Shown: positions 14,515-58,008 of the stretch, one piece after another
How the letters are laid out: every line of letters begins with the position of its first letter
How positions within the stretch are numbered: the stretch's first letter is position 1
NCBI RefSeq assembly: GCF_034356035.1
Contig: NZ_CP136423.1
Span: 3,038,001-3,102,000 of the forward strand
Direction of reading: 5' to 3'
Origin: Blautia hydrogenotrophica DSM 10507
Lineage (GTDB): Bacteria > Bacillota > Clostridia > Lachnospirales > Lachnospiraceae
Length of the DNA stretch: 64,000 bases
The notes under the pieces: model-generated
What the model saw: only the letters and a program-made list of their open reading frames with translations
Told to the model about the DNA's origin: nothing
The model's database searches: none
Made by a program: the position numbers and the translations under genes

Positions 14515-14626
14515 CAAAACAGGGAGTACATTCTGGAAACTCTCCCAACATTGTACTCCCAGTCTTATCTTATCAAAATTTGAGGCTTTTCACAAGGTCT
14601 TATTATCTGCCGTACTCTCCCATAGT

Positions 14627-22049: not shown

Positions 22050-22973
22050 CTATTTCCGGTACAGATCTTCCGAATATACGCCTCTGTCAACCAGCTCCCG
22101 GAAAGCCTCGACTACCTTTTGCTTGTCTTCCTGATAGGTCACTCCGAACCAGCTATCATGGGTCTTCAACACATCCACCTGAGCGCGTCCTTCTCTCATA
22201 AGACCGTCTATCATGGTGGGCAGCAGATACTCCGCTTTCAAATCACCCGGTTTCACATTTTTCAGGAACTCCACAAAGCCTTCCTCTAGAGCCTTCAGAA
22301 ATTCCGGCGTCAACCCCCACATATTCATAGATACCAGACTCTTGGGGTCTAGCGGTGTGATTGTTCCATCTTCCTTTTTCACCCCTGCCCCTTCAGCAGT
22401 CTTGGCGATCTCATGGGTCTCCGTAATCCCTGTCAGTCTTCCCTGATCATCTCTGCGGCAGATTCCCCTAGTTACCGTTCCATTCTCACTTAGGGTGTTC
22501 TCCAAAATAAAGCCAGCCATACATATCTGCATTTTACTGGAAGGTTCTTTCTCTTCTACTAGGTAATCGTGCACCTTCACAAATGCCTCTTTTCCATAGT
22601 AATCGTCCGCATTGATAACCACAAACGGTTCATCTAGTATCTTCCTACAGGCCAAAACTGCCTGGCAGGTTCCCCACGGCTTTGTACGTCCCTCTGGTTT
22701 TTCAAACCCTTCTGGGAGATCGTCCAATTCCTGAAACGCGTAGCTTACTTCGGTAATCTTCTCAATTCTATTCCCAATGACTCTCTTAAATTCATCTTCT
22801 AAATCTTTTCTTATGATGAATACGACCCGGTTAAATCCGGCCTCCAATGCATCATGTATGGAATAGTCCATGATAATCTCACCACTGGGTCCTACTTTCT
22901 CCAACTGCTTGATACCTTTGCCGTAGCGGCTTCCGATTCCCGCCGCCATAATTACCAGCGCTGTTTTTTTCAT
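22050..22973 (-). CDS. Sugar-phosphate nucleotidyltransferase
   Basis: A 307-residue NTP-transferase with the nucleotide-binding start ALVIMAAGIGSRYGKGIKQ and the metal/substrate motif VINADDYYG. It resembles UTP-glucose-1-phosphate and related nucleotidyltransferases found near cell-envelope genes, and sits 105 bases ahead of glmM on the same strand. The sugar is not determinable. Start choice is open: ATG at 22973, or a TTG two codons earlier (22979) that is better spaced from GGAGGAG. Full length for the family. Confidence 0.82.
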   Translation of the reverse strand: MKKTALVIMAAGIGSRYGKGIKQLEKVGPSGEIIMDYSIHDALEAGFNRVVFIIRKDLEDEFKRVIGNRIEKITEVSYAFQELDDLPEGFEKPEGRTKPWGTCQAVLACRKILDEPFVVINADDYYGKEAFVKVHDYLVEEKEPSSKMQICMAGFILENTLSENGTVTRGICRRDDQGRLTGITETHEIAKTAEGAGVKKEDGTITPLDPKSLVSMNMWGLTPEFLKALEEGFVEFLKNVKPGDLKAEYLLPTMIDGLMREGRAQVDVLKTHDSWFGVTYQEDKQKVVEAFRELVDRGVYSEDLYRK

Positions 22974-23202
22974 CTCCAATTTGCTCCTCCATTTTTCATG
23001 GGATTCGTTCCCTTCTACTAATTATCCGTGATATTTCTTACTATTATAAGGGTTTCCTCTCCCACTTGATCTATGCTGCTGTCATTGTACTTGATTTTAA
23101 AAGTTTTTTCAATACTCTTCCAGCCTGTGTCATAAACGGGCGGTATCCGCGGGTACCGCCTGCGGCTATTATTATAGCACTTCCTGCTTTCTTCTGTCAT
23201 AC

Positions 23203-23272: not shown

Positions 23273-24532
23273 TCAGTCCGTCACAGGGCAACCGTAGAAG
23301 TACTTGCCCAGTTCCTCCTTTTTCATGCTTCTGAATCTTTTCGGCAACCGCACCTTTTCCAAAGCTTCACAGCGGAAAAAGGACTCCTCCTCCAAGATCT
23401 CTGTACTGTCTGGAAGTTCAATCTCTCGGAGATTTTCGCAGAACTTAAAAGCCTCCTTTGAAATCCATCTGAGTCCTTCCGAAAGACCTATATATTCCAG
23501 GCTCGTGCAGCCGTAAAAAGCCTGAGAATCAATCTTAATCACCGTGTCGGGAAGAGAAAGGCTTTTAAGACCAGAGCAGTCCCGGCACATCCCCTCCGGA
23601 ATTTCTTCCAACCCCTTAGGCAAGATCAGGCGGACAAGATTTCGGCAGCTCTCAAAAGCTCCCTTGCCGATCTCTGTGACTGAGTCCGGCAGGTGAATAG
23701 CCGTGGCTTTTGCCAGCCCTAAAAAAGCTCCCGGCCAAATTTTGTACACGCCTTCGGGTACACGACAAACCTCGTTCTCATCTCTGATACACCGGTACAA
23801 AATCCCATCCTTTATCAGCATTCCTTTCTGCCTTGTGTGGACTTCTTCTGTGTGCTGCCTGGCCGCTTGGTGCTTCCAGTATTCCTCTCTCTCCCGCGCC
23901 AGCGTCTCCCGGGCCTGTCTGTATTCCAAGTTCTTAGGTCTCAGCCTCTCAAACTCTTCTCTGGAGTATCCCAGAAAGACATAGGCATAGCGAAAGAACT
24001 CGTCATACATACGGTAATAATATTCTTCCTCCATCCCATACCCGTCCTCGTCTGGTCCCTCATAGCCGGCATAAGTCTCATAATAGTAGGTCTTTTCCTC
24101 CGTCTGTCCCCGCAGTCTGATCCTTCCTTGCGCTTTTATCTCGCTCAGGCCAAGAGCTCTCAGCGTGTCCCCTGTAATGGGGACGCTGTGCTCTCCGCTG
24201 CCAAAAAAGAGAGACTTCACGGGAAGGAAGCCCTGCCAGATGCAGCGGGGATTCTTTTCCAGCAAATCCATGGCCGCCTGACTGCCGTAAAACGCTGCCC
24301 TAGTCAGCCAGGTGTAAGCGGCCCTCAGCCGAAAACCCTCCTGCGGGTTTTGTTCCAACCGCTCCTCCAGCTCCTTTTCACTTTCCTCGCTGCAGCGGGC
24401 CGCATATTGACTGTCCAATCTTTTCAGCTCATCAGGAACTCTACTCCAAAACCACTGATACATCCGCAGCATGGCCTGTGGATCTCCCATTTTACAGCCA
24501 TAGGCCAACTCCTCAAAAACAGAATCCAGCAT
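23273..24532 (-). CDS. Protein with Sel1-like N-terminus and BspA-type leucine-rich repeats
   Basis: A 419-residue protein with no signal peptide or membrane helix. The N-terminal 130 residues are helical and Sel1/TPR-like (ELAYGCKMGDPQAMLRMYQW, AAYTWLTRAAFYGSQAAM). The middle is charged and Tyr/Arg/Glu-rich. From about residue 255 there are five or six BspA-type LRR_5 repeats (CRNLVRLILPKGLEEIPEG, CTSLEYIGLSEGLRWISKEA, CENLREIELPDSTEILEEES). LRRs of this kind bind proteins. Last gene of the operon, starting one base after the Sel1 gene stop with GGAGGAA. Probably a cytoplasmic recognition or scaffold partner; no enzymatic motif seen. Confidence 0.8.
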   Translation of the reverse strand: MLDSVFEELAYGCKMGDPQAMLRMYQWFWSRVPDELKRLDSQYAARCSEESEKELEERLEQNPQEGFRLRAAYTWLTRAAFYGSQAAMDLLEKNPRCIWQGFLPVKSLFFGSGEHSVPITGDTLRALGLSEIKAQGRIRLRGQTEEKTYYYETYAGYEGPDEDGYGMEEEYYYRMYDEFFRYAYVFLGYSREEFERLRPKNLEYRQARETLAREREEYWKHQAARQHTEEVHTRQKGMLIKDGILYRCIRDENEVCRVPEGVYKIWPGAFLGLAKATAIHLPDSVTEIGKGAFESCRNLVRLILPKGLEEIPEGMCRDCSGLKSLSLPDTVIKIDSQAFYGCTSLEYIGLSEGLRWISKEAFKFCENLREIELPDSTEILEEESFFRCEALEKVRLPKRFRSMKKEELGKYFYGCPVTD

Positions 24533-24533
24533 C

Positions 24534-26066
24534 TTATTCCTCCTGTTCCAATTTCTCCTGCATTTCTTTTGTCTTCTTATACTGCTGGTCATTCAGCCTG
24601 CTTATCCACTCCACAGCTTTTCTCTCGTCCTTTTCCACGCCTTTTCCATTCCTATAGCATTGAATCAACTTCTCCTGTGCACTCATATCTCCCTGTTCTG
24701 CCGCCTTCTCGTACCATTCTACTGCAGTCTCATAGTCCTGTTCTACACCTTTCCCATCGTAGTAACAGTTTCCCAGTTCCCTTTGAGCGTCAGCGTCTCC
24801 TTGGTTCGCCGCTTTCTCATACCACTGGACCGCCTTCTGATAGTCTCTCTCTACCCCTTCTCCATCGTAGTAATGTTTACCGAGATTGTACTGGCTTACC
24901 GCATGTCCTTGGTTCGCTGCTTTCTGGAACCATTCTACTGCTTTTGCGGCATCCTCTTCTACTCCTAAGCCGCTGCTATAGCAGGCACCCAACTCGTTCT
25001 GGCCGACAGCATTGCCCTGTTTAGCTGCCTTTTCATACCACTGAGCCGCCTCTTCAAAATTCGCTTCCGTCCCATCCCCAAAAAAATAACAAGTTCCAAG
25101 TCCCACCTGCCCATAAGGATTGTCCTGCTCGGCCGATGCCTGATACCACTTCACTGCCGATTCATAGTCCTGTGTTGCTCCAAATCCGTTGTAATAGCAT
25201 TCTCCCAGCATATACTGACCATAAGAGTTATCCTGGTCCGCCGATTTCTGGTACCATTTCACCGCTTCAGAGTAATCCTGCTCCGTTCCCCAGCCGTAAT
25301 AATAACAGTTTCCCAGATAGTACTGGGCATAGGAATATCCCTGGTCTGCGGATTTTCCATACCACTTCATCGCCGCGGCGTAATCCCGCTCCACTCCGTT
25401 GCCTTCCCGGTAACAGCTGCCTAAGCTGCTCTGAGCATAAAAGTTCTCCTGGTCCGCAGCTTTTTGATACCATTTTGCCGCAGTCTCGTAGTTCTGGGGC
25501 ACTCCCTGCCCCTTGTAATAGCAGTCTCCAAGACTGTTCTGAGCACCGTCATGCCCCTGTTCTGCCGCCTTCTCATACCATTTCGCCGCCTCGGTGTAAT
25601 CCTGGTCCACTTCGATGCCATATTCATAGGCCCGTCCCAGCTGATAACACTCCTCCGGGGTCTCAGCGTCCGCTTCCCGGCTGCTCTCATCCTCTTTCTC
25701 ATCGCTGACTGGTGGGACTTCACTCTTTTTCCCCTGCTGAACTCCCGCTAAAAAGAGCCCTAAGACACCAAGAACCCCAACGGCTACGACCGCCCCGGCC
25801 AGAAGGTATTTCCACCCAGTCCTCGGCTGTTTTGGCTTGGGCGGGTCTGGTTCTGGTGGCTGCGGTTCTGGCGGCTCCGGTTCCGGCGACTCCGGCTCTG
25901 GTGTCTCCGGTTCCGATGGGTCCGGTTCCGGCGGCTCCGGCCCCGGCTCCTCTAAAATCCATTTTCCGTAGATCGTCAAATCCGCGCCGCAGTCGCAGGT
26001 CCCCTCGGCCCTCTCATACTCTCTTCCACAGATCTGACACTGAAACAATTTCTTTTCTTCGTTCAT
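24534..26066 (-). CDS. Zinc-ribbon / Pro-Glu linker / membrane / ten-Sel1-repeat protein
   Basis: A 510-residue protein. Residues 10-26 form a short zinc ribbon (CQICG..CDCG). Residues 41-80 are a rigid Pro-Glu repeat (PEP, EPP units). One membrane helix spans about 86-108. The rest (about 140-500) is ten consecutive 36-residue Sel1 repeats, each like AQxxLGxCYYxGxGVxxDYxxAVKWYxKAAxQG. Sel1 arrays are protein-docking superhelices. The zinc ribbon would be cytoplasmic and the Sel1 array outside, or the reverse; the linker favours a stalk. Start at 26066 has GGGAGGGAG. It lies between the protease and LRR genes. Confidence 0.85.
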   Translation of the reverse strand: MNEEKKLFQCQICGREYERAEGTCDCGADLTIYGKWILEEPGPEPPEPDPSEPETPEPESPEPEPPEPQPPEPDPPKPKQPRTGWKYLLAGAVVAVGVLGVLGLFLAGVQQGKKSEVPPVSDEKEDESSREADAETPEECYQLGRAYEYGIEVDQDYTEAAKWYEKAAEQGHDGAQNSLGDCYYKGQGVPQNYETAAKWYQKAADQENFYAQSSLGSCYREGNGVERDYAAAMKWYGKSADQGYSYAQYYLGNCYYYGWGTEQDYSEAVKWYQKSADQDNSYGQYMLGECYYNGFGATQDYESAVKWYQASAEQDNPYGQVGLGTCYFFGDGTEANFEEAAQWYEKAAKQGNAVGQNELGACYSSGLGVEEDAAKAVEWFQKAANQGHAVSQYNLGKHYYDGEGVERDYQKAVQWYEKAANQGDADAQRELGNCYYDGKGVEQDYETAVEWYEKAAEQGDMSAQEKLIQCYRNGKGVEKDERKAVEWISRLNDQQYKKTKEMQEKLEQEE

Positions 26067-26124
26067 CTGCTCCCTCCCACTCTTCACATACACTTTCATT
26101 TTTTCTAAAAGCACACATCTCTTC

Positions 26125-27798
26125 TCAGTTCTCTATATACAGAGCTCCTCGGGGAATCCCGGCCCCATAGTACTGTTCATCTCCCAGTCTCTCACAGTAA
26201 TCTTTGATATATTTCTCAATCTGCGCCGGAGACGCCTCCGGGACATACATACACAGCATTGCCGACAGCGCCGAGATATGCGGCGCCGCCATAGAGGTCC
26301 CGCTCATGCTCTCAAAGCCTTCCGGCTTGATACTGTAGCTCACCACATCCACACCGGGCGCGCACACGTCCACGGAATCCCCATAATTGGAAAAAGAAGC
26401 GATTTCATGTTCCTGGTCCACCGCTCCCACTACTATACATTCTGTCAAAGCCGCAGGCATTACTCCCGCGGTATCCTCCGGGTTTCCCGCTTCGTCACCG
26501 TTGCCGGCGCTCACCACCACGGTAATTCCCTGCTGCACCGCCTCGCCAATCAGCATCTGCTCCCAATTATGCTCCGCCCCGGCGGGGCCTCCCAGACTCA
26601 TATTAATCACATCCGGAGCCTGACTGATGGCATACTCCAGCCCCGTGCATATACTCGTCGTGCTGGCCAGAGCATTCGCCCCGAACACCCCCACTGGCAG
26701 CACCTTCACATCCAGTCCCTGGGTACAATCCAGAATCGTACCCGCCACATGAGTTCCGTGTCCCACCGTGTCCATGCGTCCGTCGCCGCCGACCACCACG
26801 TCGGTCCCCGCCAAAACCCGGTCTTTCATCGCCTCAGCGGGCAGAACCCCGGTGTCAACCACCGCTACTGTGGCAGACTGCTGTCTGGCGTGACCGGCGA
26901 GATAGTCCGCCAGCTGATCCATTCCCATATCCTGGCAACCCCAGGTGTAATACTGACGGCCTGAGTTTTGGGAGAGGGCATTTTGACCCTCTCCGGCTGT
27001 CTGGCTGGAAACGTCGTATTCATCCATCTCCACGAAGGTAACTTCCTTCATCTTCTCCAGAGACTCCAGGCACTGTCTGGCCTCTTCCTCAGAATCAAAC
27101 TGAATAATCACCATATTGTTTTCCCTGGCAATCACCCGCTTGGCCAGAAAATCCGTCAGGTTCAGCGACTTTCCCTCGAAGTGCAGAATCAGACGGTTCG
27201 TGCTCCTCTGTCCGGCAACCACCAGCTCATCATCGTACTCCTCCAGGAGAGACCGCATGCTCTCATTGAATTCCTCCAGCGTATTCGTCTCCTTCAGCTG
27301 TGTGTCCTTTCCGACCAGAACTTCTCCGCGGCCGCTCACCTGCCCCTGTTCCTCTTCCTGAACCGAAAGCTTTGAACGATACGAGAGAATTGCCAGCACA
27401 GCCCCCACGATGGCCAGACAGATGAGGAGCGCTCCGATACACCGGATTCTCCGCTGCCTTTTCATCCTCCTGAGGGCCTTCCTGGCCTCCTCGTTCCCTG
27501 CTTTGGCCGCGGCCTCATACCACCGCCTCGCGTATTTTTTGCTTTTGCCCACAGCCCAGCCGTATTCTGCCATCTGCCCCATCGCCAGCAACGCCTGACT
27601 GTGTCCTGCCTTGGCGGCTCTCTCCATGCAATAGACCGCGTCTGCGTTCTTATCTCCTCTCTCCGCCTGAGAAAGCAGATAGTCCGCAGCCTCAAAAAGC
27701 GTTTCCGTATCTTCTGTCTGTGCGGCCCTGGCACAGCTCTCCCGGGCCAGCTTCTCATCTCCTTCAAAGACCCATCTGCGCTTTTTGACCTCATACAT
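26125..27798 (-). CDS. Membrane-anchored S8 (subtilisin) protease with N-terminal Sel1 repeats
   Basis: A 557-residue protein: Sel1-like repeats at about 34-115 (VYCMERAAKAGHSQALLAMG, RRWYEAAAKAGNEEARKAL), a basic stretch, one membrane helix 118-140, an inhibitor-I9-like propeptide region about 195-262, and a complete subtilase domain with Asp315 (VAVVDTG), His347 (GHGTHVAG), Asn433 (SAGN) and Ser502 (SGTSMAAP). All catalytic residues are present, so it should be active. By the positive-inside rule the Sel1 part is cytoplasmic and the protease extracellular. Its start overlaps the vWA gene by eight bases. Likely target: another membrane component of this locus; inferred. Confidence 0.88.
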   Translation of the reverse strand: MYEVKKRRWVFEGDEKLARESCARAAQTEDTETLFEAADYLLSQAERGDKNADAVYCMERAAKAGHSQALLAMGQMAEYGWAVGKSKKYARRWYEAAAKAGNEEARKALRRMKRQRRIRCIGALLICLAIVGAVLAILSYRSKLSVQEEEQGQVSGRGEVLVGKDTQLKETNTLEEFNESMRSLLEEYDDELVVAGQRSTNRLILHFEGKSLNLTDFLAKRVIARENNMVIIQFDSEEEARQCLESLEKMKEVTFVEMDEYDVSSQTAGEGQNALSQNSGRQYYTWGCQDMGMDQLADYLAGHARQQSATVAVVDTGVLPAEAMKDRVLAGTDVVVGGDGRMDTVGHGTHVAGTILDCTQGLDVKVLPVGVFGANALASTTSICTGLEYAISQAPDVINMSLGGPAGAEHNWEQMLIGEAVQQGITVVVSAGNGDEAGNPEDTAGVMPAALTECIVVGAVDQEHEIASFSNYGDSVDVCAPGVDVVSYSIKPEGFESMSGTSMAAPHISALSAMLCMYVPEASPAQIEKYIKDYCERLGDEQYYGAGIPRGALYIEN

Positions 27799-28972
27799 GT
27801 CCGTCCACCTCCTCATCCAAATCATAGGTTGTATAAGCCGAAAAAATAAAAACGCAAAACAGTACACAGGACGCAGATAGGCTCCCGACGCCTATCTGCC
27901 CCAGCACCGTAACCAGCACGCACAGCACCAGTCCCGCAGCTGCATTTCCTATCGCCTGTTCCTTATTGAGCCTCCGGTAATAGACTGCTCCCACCAGAAT
28001 GCCGCAGACACTGAAAATCAGCGCTCGAATCAGAAAGCGCAGCAAAAAGCTGCCTTTTATCTTTCCAAAGACCAGCATCCCTTCTCCCATGCCGAATTCT
28101 TTCGCGGCCGAAAACGCCTGCCGAAAGGCCTTTGTCAGCTCGTCGGTGCTGATCTGTCCCTTCTCGTCCACCGGTATCTTCGTGTCAAATCCCCCGGTCT
28201 TCTGTGCAAACTGAACCAGCTGCCTGGCAGTCTCCGTCTCCTGCTCTCCCGCATCCATACGGATGGTATACAGCACCACGTCTTTTTCTTTGTACTCCTC
28301 TTCCAGGGTCTCCGGGAACGGCCCTTCCCCGTCGCTTAACAGAATCACTGCCTGTATCCGCCCTGTTTCCTTTTTCTCTTCCAGCGAATTCAGAGCGAAG
28401 GTCAGCGGCTGTCCAAATTCCGTACCGCCTATGATGTCAGTCCCTTCGACAAACTTAATCAGCGTCTCACGGCCTTCCTCGTCCAGGGGAAGAAGCTCCG
28501 TGTTTCCCAGCACACAGGACGCAAACGCCACAGCCTGGGCCCTGCTCTGCTCATCCATCTGTTCAAGGAGAGCCTCCGTTGCCTGGACACAGGGTTCTTT
28601 CTTGCCCTGCATGCTGCCGGAGCCGTCCAAAAGCAGCACCATATCTACGGCGCTGTGGTTCTCCATAGGGGGAAGCATGTAGAGAAACTGCCCGCCGGCT
28701 CCCACTGCGAAGCCAGTCAAAGCCGCCGCTATCAGTGTGATCGCCCTGTTTCCCCTCCGAAATATCACGAAATTCCGGCGGTGAATCCCCTCCGCCAAAA
28801 AGCTGCCCAGCAGACTGACTACAAACGGAATGCAAAAAAACAGTCCCGTCCACAGAATCTTTCCCCAGTCATCCTGTGCCATCCGGCCGTAAAGCCAGGC
28901 GCAGGCCGCACACCCGGCTCCGCTCAGCAAAAAGGTCAGCGCCAGCATCCAGCGGTCAAATTTTCCTTTCAC
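27791..28972 (-). CDS. Membrane vWA-domain protein
   Basis: A 393-residue protein with three N-terminal membrane helices (about 9-28, 39-59, 77-100), a von Willebrand A domain with a complete metal-ion-dependent adhesion site (DGSGS 116-120, Thr184, SDGEG 213-217), and two or three more helices at the C-terminus. It resembles BatA/B-type vWA membrane proteins, which assemble complexes by metal-dependent ligand binding. No MoxR ATPase, the usual partner of such proteins, is nearby; GTPases are there instead. The start overlaps the preceding gene in an ATGA arrangement. Confidence 0.85.
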   Translation of the reverse strand: MKGKFDRWMLALTFLLSGAGCAACAWLYGRMAQDDWGKILWTGLFFCIPFVVSLLGSFLAEGIHRRNFVIFRRGNRAITLIAAALTGFAVGAGGQFLYMLPPMENHSAVDMVLLLDGSGSMQGKKEPCVQATEALLEQMDEQSRAQAVAFASCVLGNTELLPLDEEGRETLIKFVEGTDIIGGTEFGQPLTFALNSLEEKKETGRIQAVILLSDGEGPFPETLEEEYKEKDVVLYTIRMDAGEQETETARQLVQFAQKTGGFDTKIPVDEKGQISTDELTKAFRQAFSAAKEFGMGEGMLVFGKIKGSFLLRFLIRALIFSVCGILVGAVYYRRLNKEQAIGNAAAGLVLCVLVTVLGQIGVGSLSASCVLFCVFIFSAYTTYDLDEEVDGHV

Positions 28973-30039
28973 TGTCCATCCACCTCTATCCTCTTCGCAC
29001 TGAGGGCCTCACTCTCACAGCAGGGATGAAAAATCTGAGACAATTTGACCATCAGATCATTTCCCTCGCCCGTCTGCAGAAAGTCTGCGCCCTCTCCTTC
29101 TGTGCAGGCATTCACCGTATAAATCACCGGCATCTGACAGCCCACCGGTATATACCTCTGATAGAAACCGCTCTTGCTGACCTCCAGTCTGAGTCTCCCC
29201 TGCTCATCCCACCCGGTAAACTCCAGACCGCCGTAGATTTGAACCTGCAGCATTTCACAGCCTTCTTCCCTCTCTCCTGCGGTCTCTCTCCACAGATTCC
29301 TTATGTATTCTGCCAGCCGTTCCTGGGTCTGGTAAGAGAGGCTGACTTCCTGTTCCAGAACCCGGAACCGTTCCAGGTATTCGAACTGTGACACCAAAAA
29401 CAGCACCGGCGTCTCTCTTCCTGCATTCCTAAGTTTTTCCAAACACTCATATAGGAAATCGTCTCTTCCATCCCTCAGACAGGGTTCCTCCGTCAAAATC
29501 CACACAGAGTCGAAATTTCTTTCTGGGGCCCAGCCCTGTTCCAGACTCTCCCCCGTCAGACAGGTAAATATCAGTTCCAGGCACTTACTCTGCTTTCCAG
29601 CCACAGAAATCCGAAAAGAATATGTCTGTTCTCCTTCCAGCTCTCTCTCCTCCAGCTCATCCTGCAGCTGGCCTCTCCTGTAAAAAATTCCGTCCAATTC
29701 CTTTTTCGCCGCCACCATGCGGCTTATAGTCCGATGATCTTCCGTATAAAAGGCCAGCCCTTCCCTCCCCACGATCTCATTCATATTGATATTCATGGAA
29801 CACAGATAGTTGCAGATCAGGCGCTGAGAGTCTCCCAGCAGGAGGATGGAAATTCGTCCTCCCACCCCATTTGCCCTGCCTGAAAAATCCATTGCCTCCC
29901 CTGCGAAAAACGACGTTTTCTCTTCTTTGTTCGCTCCCGTCTCTTCTTTCACGGGTCTGGCCGCCCCTCGTTTGCTCGGCTTCGCCGGCTCCCTCTCAGT
30001 TCCTTTATTCTTTTTTATCCAAAATGACCCAAATGGCAT
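28969..30039 (-). CDS. Unknown protein resembling a P-loop-less GTPase
   Basis: A 356-residue protein with no family I can name. After a Lys/Arg/Glu-rich, disordered 50 residues it has a core beginning RISILLLGDSQRLICNYL, which has the hydrophobic-strand-then-Gly form of a GTPase G1 region but no GK[ST]; later VWILTEEPCL and TPVLFLVSQFEYLERF look like the Walker B and NKxD strands with the key residues missing. I read it as a degenerate GTPase-like partner of the intact GTPase two genes upstream. It is not secreted. Coupled by a four-base overlap to the vWA gene. Confidence 0.7.
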   Translation of the reverse strand: MPFGSFWIKKNKGTEREPAKPSKRGAARPVKEETGANKEEKTSFFAGEAMDFSGRANGVGGRISILLLGDSQRLICNYLCSMNINMNEIVGREGLAFYTEDHRTISRMVAAKKELDGIFYRRGQLQDELEERELEGEQTYSFRISVAGKQSKCLELIFTCLTGESLEQGWAPERNFDSVWILTEEPCLRDGRDDFLYECLEKLRNAGRETPVLFLVSQFEYLERFRVLEQEVSLSYQTQERLAEYIRNLWRETAGEREEGCEMLQVQIYGGLEFTGWDEQGRLRLEVSKSGFYQRYIPVGCQMPVIYTVNACTEGEGADFLQTGEGNDLMVKLSQIFHPCCESEALSAKRIEVDGQ

Positions 30040-30067
30040 CTTGCGCCTCCTATCTTATTTTTTTAAC

Positions 30068-30760
30068 TCAGCCGGGATTCTTCTCCCATTCGGGAAACAG
30101 TTTTTCAAACAGCTCCCGGTCAATCACACCCTTCGGCGGCTTTTTCCACAGCCAAGGCGGCTGAAAATATCCCGCAGCCTCCTCCCAGGTACTGGTGCAG
30201 ACCGCAAACCGAAACAGATCTCTGCGGGTGATCGGCGCGAGGTCTGTACATGTCAGCCGTTTCCACAGCCGTCCTCCCTTATACTCCTGTACTCTGGAAC
30301 AGTCCTCCGTCCCGCTTTTTTCCGTCAGGCTCTCTCGCAGCTTTTCCGGTTCTGCCTGGAAAACGCCCCCGTCAATCCGAAGGCTCCCAAACAGTTTTCC
30401 GGTATAGAACTCACGGTCTCCCAGAAAATTCAGCGTCACCTCCCCAAGCTGCCCGACCTCTTTCATCTGCCCGCAAACGGCCAGATTCATGGCTGCCTTT
30501 CTGCCGGAAATTCTCCCCTGAAGCCCTCGAATCACCGCCATACTCCAGTCAGGCTGCGGCCGAAAGCCTTTCGCCTTTTGTTCCAGGCAGAAATCCATCC
30601 AGACCACGCGAAACACGTCGTGAAAAAAGAATTCCCTGACCAGACAGATTTCCGCTGATTTCTCATTGGCCGCCGTCTCCCGCAGTCCCTCCTCTTCCAG
30701 CCGGTTCAGCACATACCCCCGCATGGAATTTTCATAGGTTCCAAAGAGATAGATCTCCAT
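30068..30760 (-). CDS. Hypothetical protein of the accessory operon
   Basis: A 230-residue soluble protein of unknown family, starting MEIYLFGTYENSMRGYVL and ending in a Trp/Pro-rich tail (FQPPWLWKKPP). No signal peptide, membrane helix or catalytic motif is visible. The start at 30760 has GGAGGCGAAAAG upstream and comes 14 bases after the GTPase stop; a longer open frame in the same phase only overlaps the GTPase gene. Its constant position between an intact and a degenerate GTPase suggests an adaptor or regulator of that pair; this is context only. Confidence 0.7.
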   Translation of the reverse strand: MEIYLFGTYENSMRGYVLNRLEEEGLRETAANEKSAEICLVREFFFHDVFRVVWMDFCLEQKAKGFRPQPDWSMAVIRGLQGRISGRKAAMNLAVCGQMKEVGQLGEVTLNFLGDREFYTGKLFGSLRIDGGVFQAEPEKLRESLTEKSGTEDCSRVQEYKGGRLWKRLTCTDLAPITRRDLFRFAVCTSTWEEAAGYFQPPWLWKKPPKGVIDRELFEKLFPEWEKNPG

Positions 30761-30774
30761 CTTTTCGCCTCCGC

Positions 30775-31827
30775 CTACACATTCACAGGATTTTGAATGA
30801 TATAATATCCGTCCTGGGGCAAAATCCCGCTGTTTCGTTTCATTTTTTTCTGAATCGTCTCCAACGCCGTATACAGTTCCTGAACACTGCCTCCCAGCCG
30901 CTTGGCCACCTGCTGATACATGCTGTTCTGCCCCGTCTGCGCCCGCAGAGTCTGGGTCAGAATATAGGCCAGTGCATAGAGCATTGGCTGTTCGCAGAAC
31001 CGCGGCCGGTAACCCTTGCGTTCCTCTGGAAGAAACTCTGGTTCCTGGTACAGAGCCACCATCCGCCCTGTCTGTCCGTCTTTTCGAAACCGCACAAAGT
31101 CGATTCCCCCGGCACTCAAAATCGGAGTAATCGCCAGTGTACAGCTCCCGGCCAGCTCCGGTGACCTCAAATACTGAAGAAGATCCCGATAGCCTGCGCT
31201 GATGGTCGTCATCAATTCTCTCATGTATTCCCTTCGGAAAATATTCAGCTTCGGATTGTGCTCCAGATTGTAATACCGCTCGCATTTCAAAGGAACAAAC
31301 AGCACCATTCTCTCCCGTATTTCTTCTGTGGACAGGCTGTTCTTGAAAAAGTTCGCGATTTCCATGGGCTTATTGTACTCCTCATGATATCTGCCGTAGC
31401 CTTGCTCGGTCATCTTCGAGAACAGATAAGGAGTGTCTATGGCGATCAGAATCACCTGGCACTGTCCGATCAGACTGCGAAGACCGCCCTCATACTGGGG
31501 ATCGGTGAGCCACTCTCCGGGAATATCGTGGATAAAAAAGGGGATTTTCCCACCCTTGTCCACAGTCAAGGTAAAATTATAAGACCTGTTGGCGCTGGTG
31601 GGATTGTCGTCGATCTCAATACGAGTCAGCGGAGTCGCAAATTTTCGGATATTCTGCTGAATAATCTCCGCTGCCTGCGCCAGCTCCTTTCTGGTCTGAT
31701 CGTTTCCCACCGACAAACTCAGCCCTGTGCCTGCCAGAATCTTCCCTATCTCCTGATACATGGCGGACAGCACCGTCGTCTTCCCGCACCGTCTTCCGCC
31801 CAGCATCAATATATTTATTGTCTCCAT
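30775..31827 (-). CDS. P-loop GTPase-like protein of the accessory operon
   Basis: A 350-residue P-loop protein. It opens with a classic strand-P-loop, INILMLGGRRCGKTTVLSAM (Walker A GGRRCGKTT, 10-18). A G3-type motif DIPGEW is at 101-106, and VILIAIDTPYLF and MVLFVPLKCERY are where the later strands and base-recognition motif would be. It fits the TRAFAC-class GTPases reported in bacterial conflict-type gene neighbourhoods (the double-GTPase group is my best guess, not confirmed). No membrane segment. Its start overlaps the dynamin-like gene by 13 bases, so the two are made together. Confidence 0.78.
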   Translation of the reverse strand: METINILMLGGRRCGKTTVLSAMYQEIGKILAGTGLSLSVGNDQTRKELAQAAEIIQQNIRKFATPLTRIEIDDNPTSANRSYNFTLTVDKGGKIPFFIHDIPGEWLTDPQYEGGLRSLIGQCQVILIAIDTPYLFSKMTEQGYGRYHEEYNKPMEIANFFKNSLSTEEIRERMVLFVPLKCERYYNLEHNPKLNIFRREYMRELMTTISAGYRDLLQYLRSPELAGSCTLAITPILSAGGIDFVRFRKDGQTGRMVALYQEPEFLPEERKGYRPRFCEQPMLYALAYILTQTLRAQTGQNSMYQQVAKRLGGSVQELYTALETIQKKMKRNSGILPQDGYYIIQNPVNV

Positions 31828-34109
31828 ACGTTATCCTCCATCTCCAGCTCCTTTTTGATATTCTGATACTCTCGTACCAGCTCGTTGGCCTGCTGGTATT
31901 TCTCCGAGCTGGCTGTCCAGAGCTGGCTGCTGTATTCCATGAAAAATTTGCCCCATACATCCTGCATGCTCTCAAATTCACTCTCGTTCAGACTGTTGGC
32001 GAAGGTCAGCCTGTCATAAAACTCTTCCGCCGCCGCGTAAAAAGCCTGGTTCGGCGCATGGTACAAATCCACTAGTACATGCCTTAGATTCTCCTCAATG
32101 ATGGACATACGGGAGGTCAGATAAAAGTTAACCTCTTTTCCTGCGTTATCCCTGTGAAAATCATACAGAGGCTTCGCATACTCCCTGTCGCAAATGGGAT
32201 TGATAATGTAGAGCTGCTTTCTTACCTCCTGAATCAGCTGTGCCCTGGTGTTGAACTCGAACCGATACATAAATCGGAAAGCTTTGTAAATTTGCTCATA
32301 CTGGGGCTTGTCGTTGATCACATGGTCCATGATATTTTTCAGCCATTCCACCATATCCGGCTCCTTCTCCTGACCGCCGTCTTGCTCCTCCCAGGGCAGA
32401 TCTGTAATGCCCTGCGCTTTGGAGAGATTCAAAAGCTCATCGTACAGGCTTCGCACCAGAGAATTTTTGAATTTTCTCGTCTCCTCCTCCAGGATGCTGT
32501 CAATGGCGATGAACCGGTCAGTGACTTCGTTTCTCACATAGTGGAGCGCGTCGTCCCACAGCTGGCCCGGCAGAAGCGAACCGTTTCCGTTTATAGTCAG
32601 CTGCAGCGTCTGGGCATCCGGAACCAGATCGTCCAGGCTGTCCAGAATTTCCTGCACCGCATTCCACAGGATGCTGTTGGGCTGGTTGCGCTCCTGCCCC
32701 CAGTAGATCACGCAGTTGACCAGATCAGCCGTCAATTTCCGGTAGCATTCCTTTCCCTTCTGGGCAGCGCTCAGCCCCTGCTGCACACTGGCGTCAAAAG
32801 TCCGCGCCTCCGGCAGCTCTGACACAAAGACTTCGTATTTTTTCCGAATCACCGCCTCTGTCTCTTCCAGTTCCGTCAGGTAGGCCGCGTCAATGTCGTC
32901 CATATTGCCAAGAAGCCGCTCCAGCAGAGGATTCATGAAGTTATCCCGGACCTCGTCAAAGTCAGAACAGTCCGCGGTCTCACAGTAACACACGGAGAAA
33001 TTCCCCTCTCGGATTCCCTTGACAAAGGCATCTACCCGGTTGTCGCTGACTCCGACATTTTTATTTGCCAGATAAAACAGCCATTTAGACATATCTCTTC
33101 TCTGAAACCGTTCCTTCAGGCTGTTATAAAGCTTCAAATCCGACTCCTGCACCCCTGACATAGGCATTGTCACCACAATCGCCGCGTCGCACTCTTTATC
33201 CACGGTTTCCAGCATTGCTTCTTCAATCCCGTACTGGGTGTCCCCCAGACCAATCGTGTCCACCAATACCAGGCTGCCGCAGTCCTCATAGAACGGGCAG
33301 TAGATATCCGCCTTCTCCACAGCCAGATATTTGTAGTAATCCCTGTGTCCAGAGTCTCCCAGCTTGACTCCATTGTTCTGGGCTACGTACTCGGCAATCT
33401 GTCCTTTGTCCCGGAGCACCAAGTCCCCCTGGCCGTACAAGTCCCGAATTTCCCCAAAATGTTCGATGATGCGGCGCAGATGGTTCAGGGCGACGCCCTT
33501 ATCGGCCTCCCCAGGTTTTACTGCTAACGTGTCCACAGTCAATTTAAAGGATTTCGTTCCCAGCATGTCGAAATCCAGCTGGCGGCCATGGAGACACTCC
33601 GAATCTATGGCGTCCAGATATCCCTTCACGATCTCCAGCAGCTTCTCTCTTTTCCGAAACTTTATGACGGCTTCCACAGTCCCTTCCGGCATCTCTGGTC
33701 TGTTGTAAATCACGGAGGTGGCTCCGGTACAGCTCGTGGAGTTATAGGCGGGGATAATCAGATTGTCCAGATTTCCTACTGCCTGTAGAAAACAGCTCTT
33801 TCCCTGCCTCTCCTTTCCCACAGTGGCGATGCTGATGTAATCTCTGTCAAATCTTTTTACCGCCTCCTCATATTTTCCGACCAATCCTTGAAGCTCTTCC
33901 CTCATCGTGTCGGTGGGCAGGGATGCAAAGAGAGACAAATACTGTCCCCTCAGCTCGCTGTCTGTGATCTGCCTTGCTCCGTTATACAGGTGGTCGCAGT
34001 CCTCCAGCAGGGAGCAGATCTTCTTCAGATGTTCCTTTCTCTCCTTTAATTGACTGACTTTTTCTTTTCGTTTTTTCAGGATAATCTCAATTTGATCTCG
34101 TATCTTCAT
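31815..34109 (-). CDS. Dynamin-like GTPase
   Basis: A 764-residue large GTPase. An N-terminal coiled coil (about 1-85, rich in Lys/Glu) precedes the G domain: P-loop GKERQGKS (98-105), a Thr-rich switch I (STSCTGATS), DTIGLGD (284-290) and NKNVG at the G4 position (about 349-353). The remaining 400 residues are helical, as in the stalk of bacterial dynamins. Family members bind and remodel membranes, and several bacterial ones protect against phage or membrane damage. It is the first gene of the tight operon running to the LRR gene and lies 282 bases from the kinase gene. Confidence 0.85.
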   Translation of the reverse strand: MKIRDQIEIILKKRKEKVSQLKERKEHLKKICSLLEDCDHLYNGARQITDSELRGQYLSLFASLPTDTMREELQGLVGKYEEAVKRFDRDYISIATVGKERQGKSCFLQAVGNLDNLIIPAYNSTSCTGATSVIYNRPEMPEGTVEAVIKFRKREKLLEIVKGYLDAIDSECLHGRQLDFDMLGTKSFKLTVDTLAVKPGEADKGVALNHLRRIIEHFGEIRDLYGQGDLVLRDKGQIAEYVAQNNGVKLGDSGHRDYYKYLAVEKADIYCPFYEDCGSLVLVDTIGLGDTQYGIEEAMLETVDKECDAAIVVTMPMSGVQESDLKLYNSLKERFQRRDMSKWLFYLANKNVGVSDNRVDAFVKGIREGNFSVCYCETADCSDFDEVRDNFMNPLLERLLGNMDDIDAAYLTELEETEAVIRKKYEVFVSELPEARTFDASVQQGLSAAQKGKECYRKLTADLVNCVIYWGQERNQPNSILWNAVQEILDSLDDLVPDAQTLQLTINGNGSLLPGQLWDDALHYVRNEVTDRFIAIDSILEEETRKFKNSLVRSLYDELLNLSKAQGITDLPWEEQDGGQEKEPDMVEWLKNIMDHVINDKPQYEQIYKAFRFMYRFEFNTRAQLIQEVRKQLYIINPICDREYAKPLYDFHRDNAGKEVNFYLTSRMSIIEENLRHVLVDLYHAPNQAFYAAAEEFYDRLTFANSLNESEFESMQDVWGKFFMEYSSQLWTASSEKYQQANELVREYQNIKKELEMEDNVWRQ

Positions 34110-34202
34110 ATTTCTGTGTTTCCTCCCGATACCCGCAATTTGTCGTATTCTTACTATACCAAACCCACCTCTGACTCCACGTCAACTTTTTTCCGGGAAA
34201 CA

Positions 34203-34325
34203 AGGTGGACAAGCCCATTTCAGTTCCCCCTCATTCCCTCAGTCTTGACAGGCGCGTCCCACTTTGTGCGCCACCGCAACACTACTTTGCGGTGCCCTCC
34301 CTTATTGCGGCGTGCGTATCCTTTA
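34203..34325. repeat. Dispersed repeat, near-full 5' part
   Basis: Copy of the major dispersed repeat: AGGTGGACAAGCCCATTTC, then CCCCCTCATTC, GCGCGTCCCACTTTGTGCGCC, ACCGCAACACTAC and GCGTGCGTATCCTTTA. It sits in the 282-base space between the kinase and dynamin genes, next to a hairpin terminator. Confidence 0.75.
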
Positions 34326-34332
34326 ACACAAA

Positions 34333-34378
34333 CAGCCGCTGCTCCACGGATGGTTTCCCATCTGTTTTGCAGCGGCTC
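34333..34378 (-). terminator. Hairpin terminator of the kinase gene
   Basis: AGCCGCTGC and GCAGCGGCT form a nine-base-pair GC-rich stem with a weaker inner pairing, starting 14 bases past the kinase stop, followed on the minus strand by GTTTGTGTT. It suggests that the kinase gene and the dynamin-to-LRR genes are separate or only partly linked transcripts. Confidence 0.6.
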
Positions 34379-34391
34379 TAATTTTCCTTTC

Positions 34392-36296
34392 TCACCCCAG
34401 CTTTGATCTGACGTGCACCAGCATCTGAGTCTTTCTCACTTCCTGGGTATTGCGGTCTTTAATTGTAACAGTGATGGTGGCCTGTCCCTGCCGGTTCGCG
34501 AAAATCCGGCCTTTCTCATCCACCGTAGCCACCTCCGGGTTGTCGCTCTCCCATTTAATATCCAGCAGCGGCTCTAAAAAACCCACCTCTGCGTCCACCA
34601 CCAGCTTGCCTCCGTAAATGTCCTCAAAAGTCTTGACGAAGTCCCCGCACTGGGTGGTCAAAAGGTTCCACTGCCAATTCTCTTCATCAAAATAGAGAAC
34701 ATGGCTACCCTCCAGCTCTGTGATCTCATGGGCCTCTCCCTTGCCGTCGATCAGCGTGCAGTCCTTAATATCCAGCACCACCGACGTTTCCGTGTGGTTG
34801 TGATTCTGAAAAATAATCCCTATATATTCCAGGTTAAAATCATTGGTATCCTGAAAGGGAAGCTCCATGTGTAGGGCATTGTCCTTGGTATAAAAAAAAT
34901 CATAGGTAAGATCAGCGAACTGCCAGCCCCTCTTGTCTCCCTCTCCATTGTAGATGGAAAAAATACCGTAAGTCTCAAAGGCCTCCGAGGTGTCTCTGGG
35001 ATGGGGATAATCCTTCAGGTTAATTCTGGCAGACATGGAACTTTGCACCGGCATCTCCATGATATTGTCCACCAGCGGATGCCGGATATTCTTCTCCGTC
35101 AGCACCACAGAATCATCAGTTTCCAAAGGAAACTGGGTCAAATCCAGCTCCGTATGCTCCATGGACTGCTCTTCTTCCGTTTTCGGCCGCATCGCCTTTG
35201 ACAAAAAAATGCTGCTCGCTCCCCCTATCAAAAAGACACAGACCAAAATCCCTGCCGTAAAGACATGCCTCTTTCTGCTTTTTTTAGCTATCAAAGGCTC
35301 CACCTTGACCGGGGCCGGCTCTCTGTTGATTCCCGCCACAATATCATATAGCTCCTGAATATCCTGAAGCATCTCTCCGATGTTCTGATACCTATTTTGC
35401 GGAAGGAACTGCAGAGCGTTTTTCAAAATCTCATTGAGACGGACCGCCGACCGTTCCTTCTCATGAAGAAGCAGTCTAGAATAGGGCGATACCAGTTCAT
35501 CCAGACTGACCAGTTCTCTGTCCTCCGGGAATTTCTCTCCCGCCAGGATCTCATACCAGAGAACCGCCACAGAATACAAATCGGTCCACGGGCCCAGCTC
35601 TTCCCGTCTGTGAAGCATCACTTCCGGCGCCATATATCCGGTCTTTCCAAAATAATACTGATCTCCAAACTCTTCTTTGCTGTCCATGGAATATGCGCTG
35701 TTGAAATCCAGCAGAAGAAGCCTGGTGGAAAAAGTCTCATGATTCTCAGGGCTCAGCAAAAAGATATTGTCAGGACTGATGTCCAAGTGCAGCAAGTCAT
35801 GATCGTGAAAAGGCTCCAGCGCATGAAGAAGATTTTTGATAAAGAGAATCGTATCCGTCAGGGTCGGAAAATTTACCCCCTTCTCCTCCATTTCCGACAA
35901 AACCTGTCCCTTTTTGGAAGTCAAAACCGTGTAAATCGTATTATTTGCCTCAAAGGAATCCAGATTTTGAGCGATATGCTCGCTCTCCGTCTCCGACAAA
36001 ATCAAATGCGCGTAGTTTCCAGTGATAAAGCTTTTTTTATGATAGTTAAAGAAATTCATATCCTCAGCACTTACCACCAGATTCCAATGTTCATCCCTTG
36101 TGATTTTTCTCTGAGGGTCAAACGGATACAATTCTTTCAAGAGTACAATATGTTTCCGGTCCGGCATAAAAGTGTCGTAATAATACGCCCGGTAGACAAC
36201 AGAATTGGAACCCGCCCCCACATACTCATCAATGGTATATGTCCAGCTCTTTGTCGTAATCGTATAGCCCTTGGGAAGAAAACTTCTCTGACTCAT
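34392..36296 (-). CDS. Membrane Ser/Thr protein kinase with Ig-like ectodomain
   Basis: A 634-residue protein. Kinase domain: Gly loop GAGSNSVVY (about 27-35), ATP-anchoring Lys54 in VLLKE, catalytic loop HLDISPDN (170-177), metal-binding DFNS (197-200, instead of DFG) and APE (223-225). One membrane helix lies near 345-370 after a basic stop. The outer part (about 250 residues) ends in a bacterial Ig-like (Big2) domain with VATVDEKGRI and GQATITVTI. So it is a receptor-type kinase. Start at 36296 has GGGAGG. The changed DFG glycine is seen in some active kinases, so activity is likely but not certain. Confidence 0.88.
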   Translation of the reverse strand: MSQRSFLPKGYTITTKSWTYTIDEYVGAGSNSVVYRAYYYDTFMPDRKHIVLLKELYPFDPQRKITRDEHWNLVVSAEDMNFFNYHKKSFITGNYAHLILSETESEHIAQNLDSFEANNTIYTVLTSKKGQVLSEMEEKGVNFPTLTDTILFIKNLLHALEPFHDHDLLHLDISPDNIFLLSPENHETFSTRLLLLDFNSAYSMDSKEEFGDQYYFGKTGYMAPEVMLHRREELGPWTDLYSVAVLWYEILAGEKFPEDRELVSLDELVSPYSRLLLHEKERSAVRLNEILKNALQFLPQNRYQNIGEMLQDIQELYDIVAGINREPAPVKVEPLIAKKSRKRHVFTAGILVCVFLIGGASSIFLSKAMRPKTEEEQSMEHTELDLTQFPLETDDSVVLTEKNIRHPLVDNIMEMPVQSSMSARINLKDYPHPRDTSEAFETYGIFSIYNGEGDKRGWQFADLTYDFFYTKDNALHMELPFQDTNDFNLEYIGIIFQNHNHTETSVVLDIKDCTLIDGKGEAHEITELEGSHVLYFDEENWQWNLLTTQCGDFVKTFEDIYGGKLVVDAEVGFLEPLLDIKWESDNPEVATVDEKGRIFANRQGQATITVTIKDRNTQEVRKTQMLVHVRSKLG

Positions 36297-36339
36297 AGAT
36301 ACCTCCCTTATCTTAAGTGATGAATTCCTGCTGTTTCTT

Positions 36340-37467
36340 CTATGTGCAGGAATTGTCTTGTTTTTCCAGATAGACCGTCTTTCCGTCATTTCGAAAAATT
36401 TTTCTCAGCATACGTTCCAGCTTCCAGCTCATAAAATCATCGTCATTCTCCAAATTCAGCGACTGGACAACCAAATAATCAAAGGGATTGTGCAGATTCA
36501 GCAACGCCATTCCGCAGGATGCCATCATCATATCCATCCTCTTACAATGCTCCAATACAAAACTTTTTTCCGACACCTCCACCCCCATCCCCTCCGTCAC
36601 AAGATACAAAAGCAAGAGGGTCTTTCGATTCACATCCCGTTTTCTAGAATACATTTCCTGGACCATCTTTGGAGATGGCCAGTGCTTTTTGATAAACTTT
36701 TCCACCTTTGTACACTGCCGATTTTTCTTCTGATATGGAACCCCCATTCTCAAATATTCTTCTGTCACCCTCTCGATACTATATTTCTTCTCCCTGGGTA
36801 CATCCGTAAAAGTATAGTTGTCAGAAACTCCTCGCAGCAGATACTCCAGCATTGCCACAAATTTCCGGTACGCAGTGTTGTGATGAATTCCAAACACACC
36901 TTGGTTATCCCGGATAAACTTCTTGAGCTCATTCGTCTCTGTGATATTTCGAAACTCATTTTTTATAGAGATAGTCAGATGCTGCGTCGGCTCTTCAGCC
37001 CAAGTCTGCCGGACTAATTTCTGATGTTCCAGAGAGCTCTTCGGAGCACCGGTCTGTTCCAAAGCTTCAATCAGCTCTTGAGCTTGCGGATAGTCAAAAC
37101 CTCTCCTGAGACAAAAGGCGTAAATCAGCTCTCTAGGATTTCGATAGTGTATTCCGCTCTCCGCTGTCGATAACAGAAGCTTCTCTGACCTCTCTTCACC
37201 CAAAGACAAGGCAAAACAAATCTTGAATACTTCTTCCCGATTCGCCGGCTGGTTTCTTCCACCGAGCCAGTTCCGAACCTTTCTGGATATCTGTTCCTTA
37301 TTCTCTTCTTTCCCTGCTTCATAGGCTGTCAACTTCTCCGTCAACAGCGTCTGCAAATTCTGCGTTCCTCTGTATAACTCCCGCAATAGTCTCGGAAAAC
37401 ACCAGATTTCCACTTTGCTCTTCAAAAAATCAACAATATGATCTTCATCCATCTGTGTTTTTTCCAC
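36340..37467 (-). CDS. HTH-like hypothetical protein, putative regulator of the locus
   Basis: A 375-residue soluble protein. The segment about residues 60-95 (ISRKVRNWLGGRNQPANREE, then VFKICFALSL) has the spacing of an XRE-type helix-turn-helix. The rest is helical and Lys/Arg-rich with no named family (RNITETNELKKFIRDNQGVFG, RKTLLLLYLVTEGMGVEV). It starts with GTG at 37467, seven bases after GGAGGT. It lies 43 bases ahead of the kinase gene, so the two form one unit. It could be a DNA-binding regulator of the accessory locus or a kinase substrate; both are inferences. Confidence 0.7.
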   Translation of the reverse strand: MEKTQMDEDHIVDFLKSKVEIWCFPRLLRELYRGTQNLQTLLTEKLTAYEAGKEENKEQISRKVRNWLGGRNQPANREEVFKICFALSLGEERSEKLLLSTAESGIHYRNPRELIYAFCLRRGFDYPQAQELIEALEQTGAPKSSLEHQKLVRQTWAEEPTQHLTISIKNEFRNITETNELKKFIRDNQGVFGIHHNTAYRKFVAMLEYLLRGVSDNYTFTDVPREKKYSIERVTEEYLRMGVPYQKKNRQCTKVEKFIKKHWPSPKMVQEMYSRKRDVNRKTLLLLYLVTEGMGVEVSEKSFVLEHCKRMDMMMASCGMALLNLHNPFDYLVVQSLNLENDDDFMSWKLERMLRKIFRNDGKTVYLEKQDNSCT

Positions 37468-37595: not shown

Positions 37596-37624
37596 TGCGG
37601 CGGGTTGCATCAGCAACATTTTCA

Positions 37625-37773
37625 TCTCCCCTTCCCCCCAATCTTTGAGAGACGAAGCTTACATTGCGCGCCGCCGCAACATCGTCTTGTGGTACATGCG
37701 CATCCTTAGCGGAGCGTTTATGTCATAGAAAAGAGCTTTCACGTTTCAGCGTGACAATGTCTTTTCTATGACA
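37625..37773. repeat. Dispersed repeat, 3' half with hairpin
   Basis: Copy of the major dispersed repeat: CCCCAATCTTTGAG, GCGCGCCGCCGCAACATC, TTGTGGTACATGCGC, ATCCTTAGCGGAGCGTTTAT and a terminal inverted repeat TGTCATAGAAAAGA..TCTTTTCTATGACA. It is the clearest example of the hairpin end. Confidence 0.8.
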
Positions 37774-37811: not shown

Positions 37812-38885
37812 CTATTCATTCTGTAGATTACTCAATTTTGCCGCCTGGTCTGCCGCGATCAGACTGTCAATCACCTCATCCAGATCGCCGTTCAAGGTTC
37901 CTTCTAGCCTATGCAAAGTCAACTTAATCCTATGGTCAGTGACACGTCCCTGGGGGAAATTATAGGTTCTGATCTTCTCAGACCGATCTCCGGTTCCCAC
38001 CTGACTTCTTCTGGCCTCCGCCTCCGCGTCGTGCTGTTTTTGCAGTTCCATCTCATAGAGACGGGAACGCAACACTTTCAGCGCCTTGTCCTTATTCTTG
38101 AGCTGAGACTTCTCATCCTGGCAGGAAATCACAATCCCCGTAGGAATATGAGTCAGACGTACCGCAGAGTCCGTGGTGTTGACACACTGTCCTCCGTTTC
38201 CCGACGCCCGAAAGACATCAAATTTACAGTCATTCAAATCCAGATGAAAGTCAATTTCCTCTGCCTCTGGCATAATTGCCACAGTGATTGTGGATGTGTG
38301 AATCCGTCCGCCCGACTCCGTCTCAGGAACCCTTTGCACTCTGTGCACTCCACTCTCATATTTCAGACGAGAGTAAGCACCCTGGCCTTGAATCATGAAG
38401 GTTACTTCCTTGAATCCGCCGATACCATTTTCATTCAGGCTCAACATCTCCGTCTTCCAACGCCTGCTCTCCGCGTACTTCACATACATGCGGTAAATCT
38501 CCGCCGCAAACAGCGCTGCCTCATCTCCTCCCGCACCGGCACGGATCTCCACAATTACATTCTTACTGTCATTGGGATCCTTTGGCAAAAGCAGAATCTT
38601 CAACTCATTTTCCAGTTCTCCCACTCGTCTCTTTGCGTCAGACAGCTCTTCTTTGAGCATCTCCCGCATCTCCTCATCCGATTCTTCTTCCAGCATGGAT
38701 ACGCTGTCCTGAATCGTCTGTTGGTTCTCTTTGTACTCCTTGTACGTATCCACAATGGGCTGCAACTCACTCTGCTCCCGCATCAGTTTTTGAAAACGTT
38801 CCTGGTTGTCAGCGACCCCCGGCTCTCCGAGCTCGCTTAAAACCTCTTCGAAGCGGATAAGCAAATCTTCCAATTTATCAAACAT
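37812..38885 (-). CDS. prfA: Peptide chain release factor 1
   Basis: A 357-residue class I release factor. The stop-codon-reading tripeptide is PET (187-189, the PxT motif of RF1) in [14 protein letters not shown], and the peptidyl-hydrolysis motif GGQ is at 231-233 ([12 protein letters not shown]), which PrmC methylates. It terminates translation at UAA and UAG. It overlaps prmC by eight bases, so enzyme and substrate are made together. A clear AGGAGG site precedes the ATG. Confidence 0.97.
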
Positions 38886-58007: not shown

Positions 58008-58008
58008 A

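Follow-up and report, generated by a model that had tools for sequence, protein, structure and literature searches.

Seven consecutive genes, g3 to g9, in a 64,000-nucleotide stretch of the Blautia hydrogenotrophica DSM 10507 genome (the window) are, judging by their sequences, a genuine conserved system centered on a dynamin-superfamily GTPase, to which g1 and g2 form a separable front end and g10 an accessory. With far greater confidence than attaches to the mechanism discussed below, g3-g9 can be regarded as dynamin-based kin of the DO-GTPase/vWA membrane systems; within a poorly understood class of bacterial signalling systems, the set seems to be a new branch built on a dynamin. Together with their neighbors they make up ten minus-strand genes filling positions 23273-37467 of the window:

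36340..37452, minus strand: g1, helix-turn-helix (HTH)-like protein, 370 aa (HTH by eye)
34392..36296, minus strand: g2, membrane receptor Ser/Thr kinase (Pkinase, Big_2, one transmembrane (TM) segment)
31815..34109, minus strand: g3, dynamin-superfamily GTPase, 764 aa (P-loop, structure model)
30775..31827, minus strand: g4, DO-GTPase, 350 aa (PF19993, P-loop, DxPGE motif)
30068..30760, minus strand: g5, 230 aa, third component, following g4 directly (modelled topology tentatively longin-like)
28969..30039, minus strand: g6, DO-GTPase paralogue without P-loop (hhalign to the g4 family)
27791..28972, minus strand: g7, multi-TM vWA protein with MIDAS motif (VWA 6.7e-12; homologous to vWA proteins from GAP1-N2 loci)
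26125..27798, minus strand: g8, membrane subtilase (Peptidase_S8 5.7e-40)
24534..26066, minus strand: g9, variable passenger (Sel1 2.1e-108, zinc ribbon, TM)
23273..24532, minus strand: g10, BspA-type LRR protein, accessory (LRR_5 5.3e-32)

All ten genes are present at the coordinates given in an earlier note on this DNA. Their likely starts, picked by eye from the upstream sequence, differ slightly from those of the longest open reading frames (ORFs): 37452 for g1, 36296 for g2, 28972 or 28948 for g7, 27798 for g8, 26066 for g9 and 24532 for g10. With these starts, the overlaps or gaps of 1-60 bases claimed from the dynamin onward hold, the packing from g3 to g10 being tight (-13 to 58 bases between genes). 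The individual spacings are 43 (g1-g2), 282 (g2-g3), -13 (g3-g4), 14 (g4-g5), 28 (g5-g6), -4 or 20 (g6-g7), -8 (g7-g8), 58 (g8-g9) and 1 (g9-g10). Among the ten proteins, the Pfam cut-offs were passed for kinase, Big_2, DO-GTPase2, vWA, Peptidase_S8, Sel1 and LRR_5, and no Pfam match was obtained for g1, g5 or g6. A promoter-like TTGACG-17-TATAGT seen by eye upstream of g3 was set aside; a consensus scan did not include it and returned 13 promoters against a shuffle mean of 10.8.

The case for a conserved system comes from gene order in other genomes. A scan of named genomes with an alignment of 23 dynamin sequences gave 25 loci, 17 of them like the window (branch I, L005-L021) and 8 of a second type (branch II). 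The genes for the dynamin, DO-GTPase, g5, g6, vWA protein and subtilase keep the same order and strand in 17/17 branch I loci, contig ends permitting. The g5 gene is present in 16 of the 17, with L005 the sole exception; g6 and the vWA gene occur in 16/16 loci and the subtilase in 15/15 loci whose contigs reach them, and four loci (L013, L018, L019 and L020) carry a second vWA gene. By title, the hosts are Clostridia-type bacteria (Lachnospiraceae, Oscillospiraceae, Ruminococcus and similar), and dynamin identity to the window falls from 70 to 39% over best segments. The number of independent cases is below 17 because L008/L009 and L011/L012 are near-duplicates (dynamins 96% identical). The multi-gene system with kept order that had been proposed is therefore real as far as the contigs reach. 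It had also been proposed that the ten genes form one unit, which is not supported: of the 10 core loci whose upstream sequence extends 5 kb or more, just 3 were seen to have g1-g2 close by (L005, L014 and L017, in the last with g1 on the opposite strand), their G+C is host-like (0.458, against 0.528 for g3-g10 and 0.450-0.466 for the flanks), the 282-base gap parts them from g3, their relatives head other gene sets, and g10 is not constant.

Branch II loci (L022-L029 in the scan, together with L138) are found in Clostridia and Bacteroidales. Common to both branches is a dynamin gene followed by DO-GTPases and g5-like proteins. Branch II differs from the window in having mostly three DO-GTPases (one in L029) and, among the genes scanned, an M48-type peptidase and DUF445; radical-SAM genes also occur, and no match to g7 or g8 was found in these loci. 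Two g5-like genes were seen in some of the Bacteroidales loci. Genome G575 carries a locus of the branch II type, and G252 has a dynamin, a DO-GTPase and, by eye, a g5-like ORF.

The dynamin match of g3 in Pfam is below the cut-off (Dynamin_N 17.2 bits, cut-off 27). The P-loop is present in 23/23 aligned dynamins, and the structural model is nearest to SynDLP (7zw6, E 4.6e-12), BDLP (2j69) and IniA (6j72). Fold in the model and GTPase motifs together confirm that g3 belongs to the dynamin superfamily. The g4 protein matches PF19993 (DO-GTPase2) just over the cut-off (27.5 bits, cut-off 27); GxxxxGK[ST] and DxPGE are found in 20/20 aligned members of its family, which strongly supports an active-type DO-GTPase, and its profile found no meaningful match among solved structures. 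An hhalign comparison relates g6 to the g4 family (probability 97.2, E 2.9e-11), and the P-loop motif is present in 0/16 of its aligned relatives, strong support for a P-loop-less paralogue. A pair of GTPase-type proteins of which one lacks the P-loop had indeed been predicted. Since only 2 relatives of g5 were found in the protein database at E 0.001, this protein evolves fast. Its topology in the structural model is tentatively longin-like; Foldseek gave no match at E 0.001 (best 0.057). A similar run of N-terminal residues raised the suspicion that g5 is GAP1, which was rejected: a Pfam scan of 16 members, relaxed to E 5, was empty, and hhalign found no match in a set of 4 GAP1-N2 sequences. 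Against a larger set of 24, hhalign of g5 together with its relatives from branch II was not significant either (the 24 came from 31 GAP1 loci, 7 without a motif match being left out). That g5 and GAP1 are both longin-like is a lead only.

Next in gene order, the membrane vWA protein and membrane subtilase that had been predicted were both recovered at the E-values listed above, with TM segments. The vWA domain of g7 sits between two sets of TM segments, the third segment being weak (1.52), and is predicted to lie outside; DxSxS (MIDAS) is kept in 18/19 aligned family members. A profile of 19 g7 relatives matched the six-TM vWA proteins of two complete GAP1-N2 loci, found via Pfam GAP1-N2, at E 1.3e-38 and 1.1e-37, values obtained without an unrelated vWA control. 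The matches span hmm positions 2-366 and 4-387 of 401, TM parts included. The subtilase g8 consists of an N-terminal Sel1-like region, a TM segment (120-138), a juxtamembrane region and the S8 domain. Its active-site Asp and His, oxyanion Asn and Ser are identical in 14/14 aligned sequences, strongly supporting a membrane-anchored subtilase with a full active site. The best NCBIfam match is to mycosin, the subtilase of the type VII secretion system. Both are membrane subtilases, but g8 scores well under the equivalog cut-off (122.5 versus 278.75 bits).

The gene directly behind the subtilase encodes a protein with a conserved base and a changing end. In g9, a zinc ribbon is followed by a Pro-rich linker, a TM segment (88-106) and ten Sel1 repeats, and a CxxC-type N terminus with a TM segment is found at this position in 14/14 loci reached by the contig, as well as in the window. 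Among ten passenger proteins scanned, the C termini contain LRR/DUF285 repeats in four, a pectate-lyase-like domain in one and nothing recognizable outside in five. Between the window and L005, whose dynamins are 70% identical, the zinc ribbons of the passengers are 60%-62% identical, and the C termini have no similarity (Z -1.4 and 0.1). Related C termini occur in some pairs (L007/L008, L011/L012 and L007/L011); the outside domain is missing in L010 and in the first L013 gene, and is short in L018. These comparisons strongly support swapping of the g9-type C-terminal domain between loci. No TM segment was found in g10 by hydropathy.

The front end is of a different character. The g2 protein has a kinase domain (Pkinase, 9e-21) in which K, HLD, N and DF can be recognized by eye, a TM segment at 345-363 and an outside Ig-like C terminus (Big_2, 1.6e-9), in agreement with the proposed receptor kinase. 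Against the MADS kinase MAD6 it scores 81.1 bits, below the NCBIfam equivalog cut-off of 460. No match for g1 was found in Pfam, NCBIfam or PADLOC. Strong g1 homologues (E below 1e-29) occur in six congeners of a 60-genome sample of the genus, with a g2-like kinase adjoining in 6/6. Four pairs were read for neighbors: L151 continues with HSP70/Sel1/HerA genes, L152 with a kinase gene plus radical-SAM and FHA-ABC genes, L153 with M48 and a different dynamin, and L154 with Sel1-kinases. Because the pairs precede such varied gene sets and accompany the core in so few loci, g1-g2 is a module combined with various back ends. A kinase-NACHT fusion is found in L153 and L154, and beside the core in L014. 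Two of these loci deserve separate mention. In L153 (10404-15154), the kinase-NACHT gene is followed by the M48 peptidase and a different, Pfam-recognized bacterial dynamin, possibly another dynamin-protease system; in L151 (390-8502), the HSP70-Sel1, HSP70 and HerA-type genes behind the pair resemble the HSP70 theme in PMC7159879.

The window block lies between two genes:

22050-22979: nucleotidyltransferase, left flank
37812-38885: prfA, right flank (name assigned from sequence)

The nucleotidyltransferase gene is present in 59 of the 60 genomes of the genus sample, and adjacency to prfA was scored in the best 29 loci from congeners (L031-L059): in 28 of them the two genes are 13-166 bases apart. 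It is strongly supported by these comparisons that the core block is an insertion at a site empty in most congeners examined. The exception is G015 (L064 8605-14001), with other genes at the junction, first a regulator-like gene and then a 775-aa ORF; prfA was not found within the stretch fetched around its nucleotidyltransferase. Since unrelated genes are inserted there in another species, the junction receives insertions repeatedly. In the close relative L005, tyrosyl-tRNA synthetase is among the flanking genes, so its insertion site differs from that of the window.

Outside its own locus the core is rare. The g3 dynamin was found in 0/36 other genomes of the genus, a sample that differs from the 60 genomes used for the nucleotidyltransferase and g1 (G373 lay outside the dynamin search). 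Strong dynamin matches occur in 2/299 family genomes (a third at E 6e-4) and in 4/391 class genomes (a fifth at E 7e-4), and therefore in about 1% of the genomes in these samples. The DO-GTPase profile found the same 4 of the 391, the two genes being adjacent every time. Two of the class genomes with a dynamin match, G793 and G872, are those that carry L013 and L023. The gene set, one of gut Clostridia, was probably acquired horizontally. A viral origin was considered and dropped, as the dynamin profile found no relative in viral contigs. As for a defence island, 58 flank ORFs, a selection of those around the core loci, gave mad3 three times, mad2, mad8 and AriA twice each and MzaA once against PADLOC with placement per ORF not possible, and ten flank ORFs scanned one by one gave a single borderline match; this is evidence neither way.

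The components, their order and motifs, the domain swapping and the insertion, all read from sequence, suggest how the system might work. The exchangeable front end, receptor kinase g2 with the HTH protein g1, would sense an envelope signal. The g4/g6 pair, regulated by the putatively longin-like g5, would then switch and bring in dynamin g3, which would assemble on the inner side of the membrane; the transmembrane vWA protein g7 would relay the assembled state outward and license g8. The protease, presumed like the vWA and passenger domains to lie outside, would cut the outside domain of g9 or another surface target, leading to its release or activation, perhaps as a response at the cell surface when a rival, a phage or damage to the envelope is encountered. 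For this chain as a whole, from kinase sensing through GTP-controlled dynamin/vWA assembly and outside protease activation to release of the passenger ectodomain, our confidence stops a little short of even. A further-reaching version, which we consider rather unlikely, is a bacterial GTPase-controlled sheddase in which an inner dynamin polymer, gated by the DO-GTPase/pseudo-GTPase pair and a longin-type regulator, turns on the outer subtilase via the transmembrane vWA protein and frees polymorphic ectodomains, both the sensor (HTH-kinase or kinase-NACHT) and the passenger being exchangeable.

Following Makarova and Koonin, the same genes could instead encode a membrane-remodelling or repair machine in which the dynamin does the work, placed by the vWA/GTPase components, while the protease has no role beyond maturing surface proteins. 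The dynamin is the most conserved component, its model is nearest to known bacterial dynamins, remodelling has been proposed for tubulin-built vWA/GTPase/kinase operons (PMC2875224), and membrane repair by bacterial dynamins is a matter of speculation (PMC6104087). This reading is unlikely, however, as it leaves unexplained why the subtilase is constant (15/15 loci reaching it) and the passenger variable (14/14). An anti-phage or inter-bacterial conflict system ending in cell death or dormancy, analogous to what has been proposed for DO-GTPase systems, would agree with the sparse distribution, the insertion into a core region, the variable passenger, the kinase-NACHT fusions and the prediction for related systems in Kaur 2020 (PMC7159879). 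Against it, the ten proteins show no PADLOC membership beyond general kinase and subtilase similarity, the few PADLOC families in the flanks could not be placed, and neither a nuclease or toxin domain nor a viral-contig relative was found; a conflict system of this kind is also rather unlikely.

Adhesion or host interaction, with an adhesin-like passenger ectodomain displayed and shed under control, is quite unlikely. The LRR_5/DUF285 and pectate-lyase-like adhesive passenger domains, the predicted outside location of protease and vWA domain, and the origin of the loci, largely gut or faecal metagenome genomes, would suit such a device, but Sel1 and the unrecognized ectodomains are no clear adhesins and a dynamin with two GTPases is poorly explained. 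That ordinary genes merely stand side by side by chance agrees with the independent variation of g1-g2 and g10; for g3-g8 and the passenger position it is refuted by the recurrence of the core order in 17/17 loci, up to their contig ends, and we give it practically no weight. If the reading of g3-g9 given here is correct, the tubulin-based DO-GTPase/vWA systems would have a dynamin-based branch, and the output of such systems could be a protease together with an exchangeable domain at the surface. Pairs of TRAFAC GTPases and longin-like regulators are familiar chiefly from trafficking in eukaryotes and Asgard archaea; if the fold of g5 holds, bacteria would have them too. With seven defined genes and unambiguous catalytic residues, the set is a test case for the whole class.

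Two further features of the window lie outside the system:

34199..34323, minus strand: interspersed repeat of 125 nt, located between g2 and g3 (own-genome matches)
37620-37681, 14434-14515 and 48662-48735: partial copies of this repeat
57899-57981, plus strand: ZMP/ZTP riboswitch, at the start of a 643-aa ORF (57926-59857)

The stem-forming, intergenic repeat has 46 further own-genome matches among those listed (76%-84% identity), some copies being paired about 190 bases apart. It has no Rfam match there in the window, was not found in L005-L029 and may be a mobile element or a structured RNA of a kind not yet described. A shared operator before g1 and g3 was dropped because both upstream regions carry copies of this genome-wide repeat.

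No published description of the full gene set was found in the literature searched, which excluded subscription journals, nor any text containing both "dynamin" and "DO-GTPase"; "dynamin" has no match in PMC7159879. The earlier statement that no named system has the full set stands to that extent, and needs the qualification that related DO-GTPase/vWA systems with homologues of g4 and g7 are described (PMC7159879, PMC2875224). Kaur 2020 described GAP1-N2-type DO-GTPase systems and predicted a conflict role ending in cell death or dormancy. Like the window, these have a DO-GTPase (in many cases a pair of paralogues) whose Walker B motif contains a glutamate, a multi-TM vWA protein homologous to g7, variable components and, in some, kinases. 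The two GAP1-N2 loci analyzed here also hold a DO-GTPase with a weak match to the g4 profile (E 3.6e-4 and 8.1e-6) and, by eye, a long tubulin-like ORF, so that the window shares two components with this class. In contrast, the dynamin, g5, the subtilase and the zinc ribbon-TM passenger set the window apart. PF20013 (GAP1) was not found in its own genome, and no tubulin-type, HSP70-type or FNIII partner was matched by Pfam among the ten window proteins, to which that search was limited. The FtsZl1 operons, for which Makarova and Koonin 2010 proposed membrane remodelling (PMC2875224), likewise combine a vWA protein, a divergent GTPase, Ser/Thr kinases, a membrane setting and a polymerising GTPase; in the window a dynamin replaces the FtsZ-like protein and a protease is extra. 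A role in membrane stress is predicted for the DO-GTPase family in PMC11237479. Finally, g3 shares its fold and G-domain motifs with SynDLP, BDLP, IniA and Cj-DLP1/2. Most bacterial dynamins are paired according to PMC6104087, whereas the core has a single dynamin gene, tied to DO-GTPases and with a helical part too divergent for Pfam.

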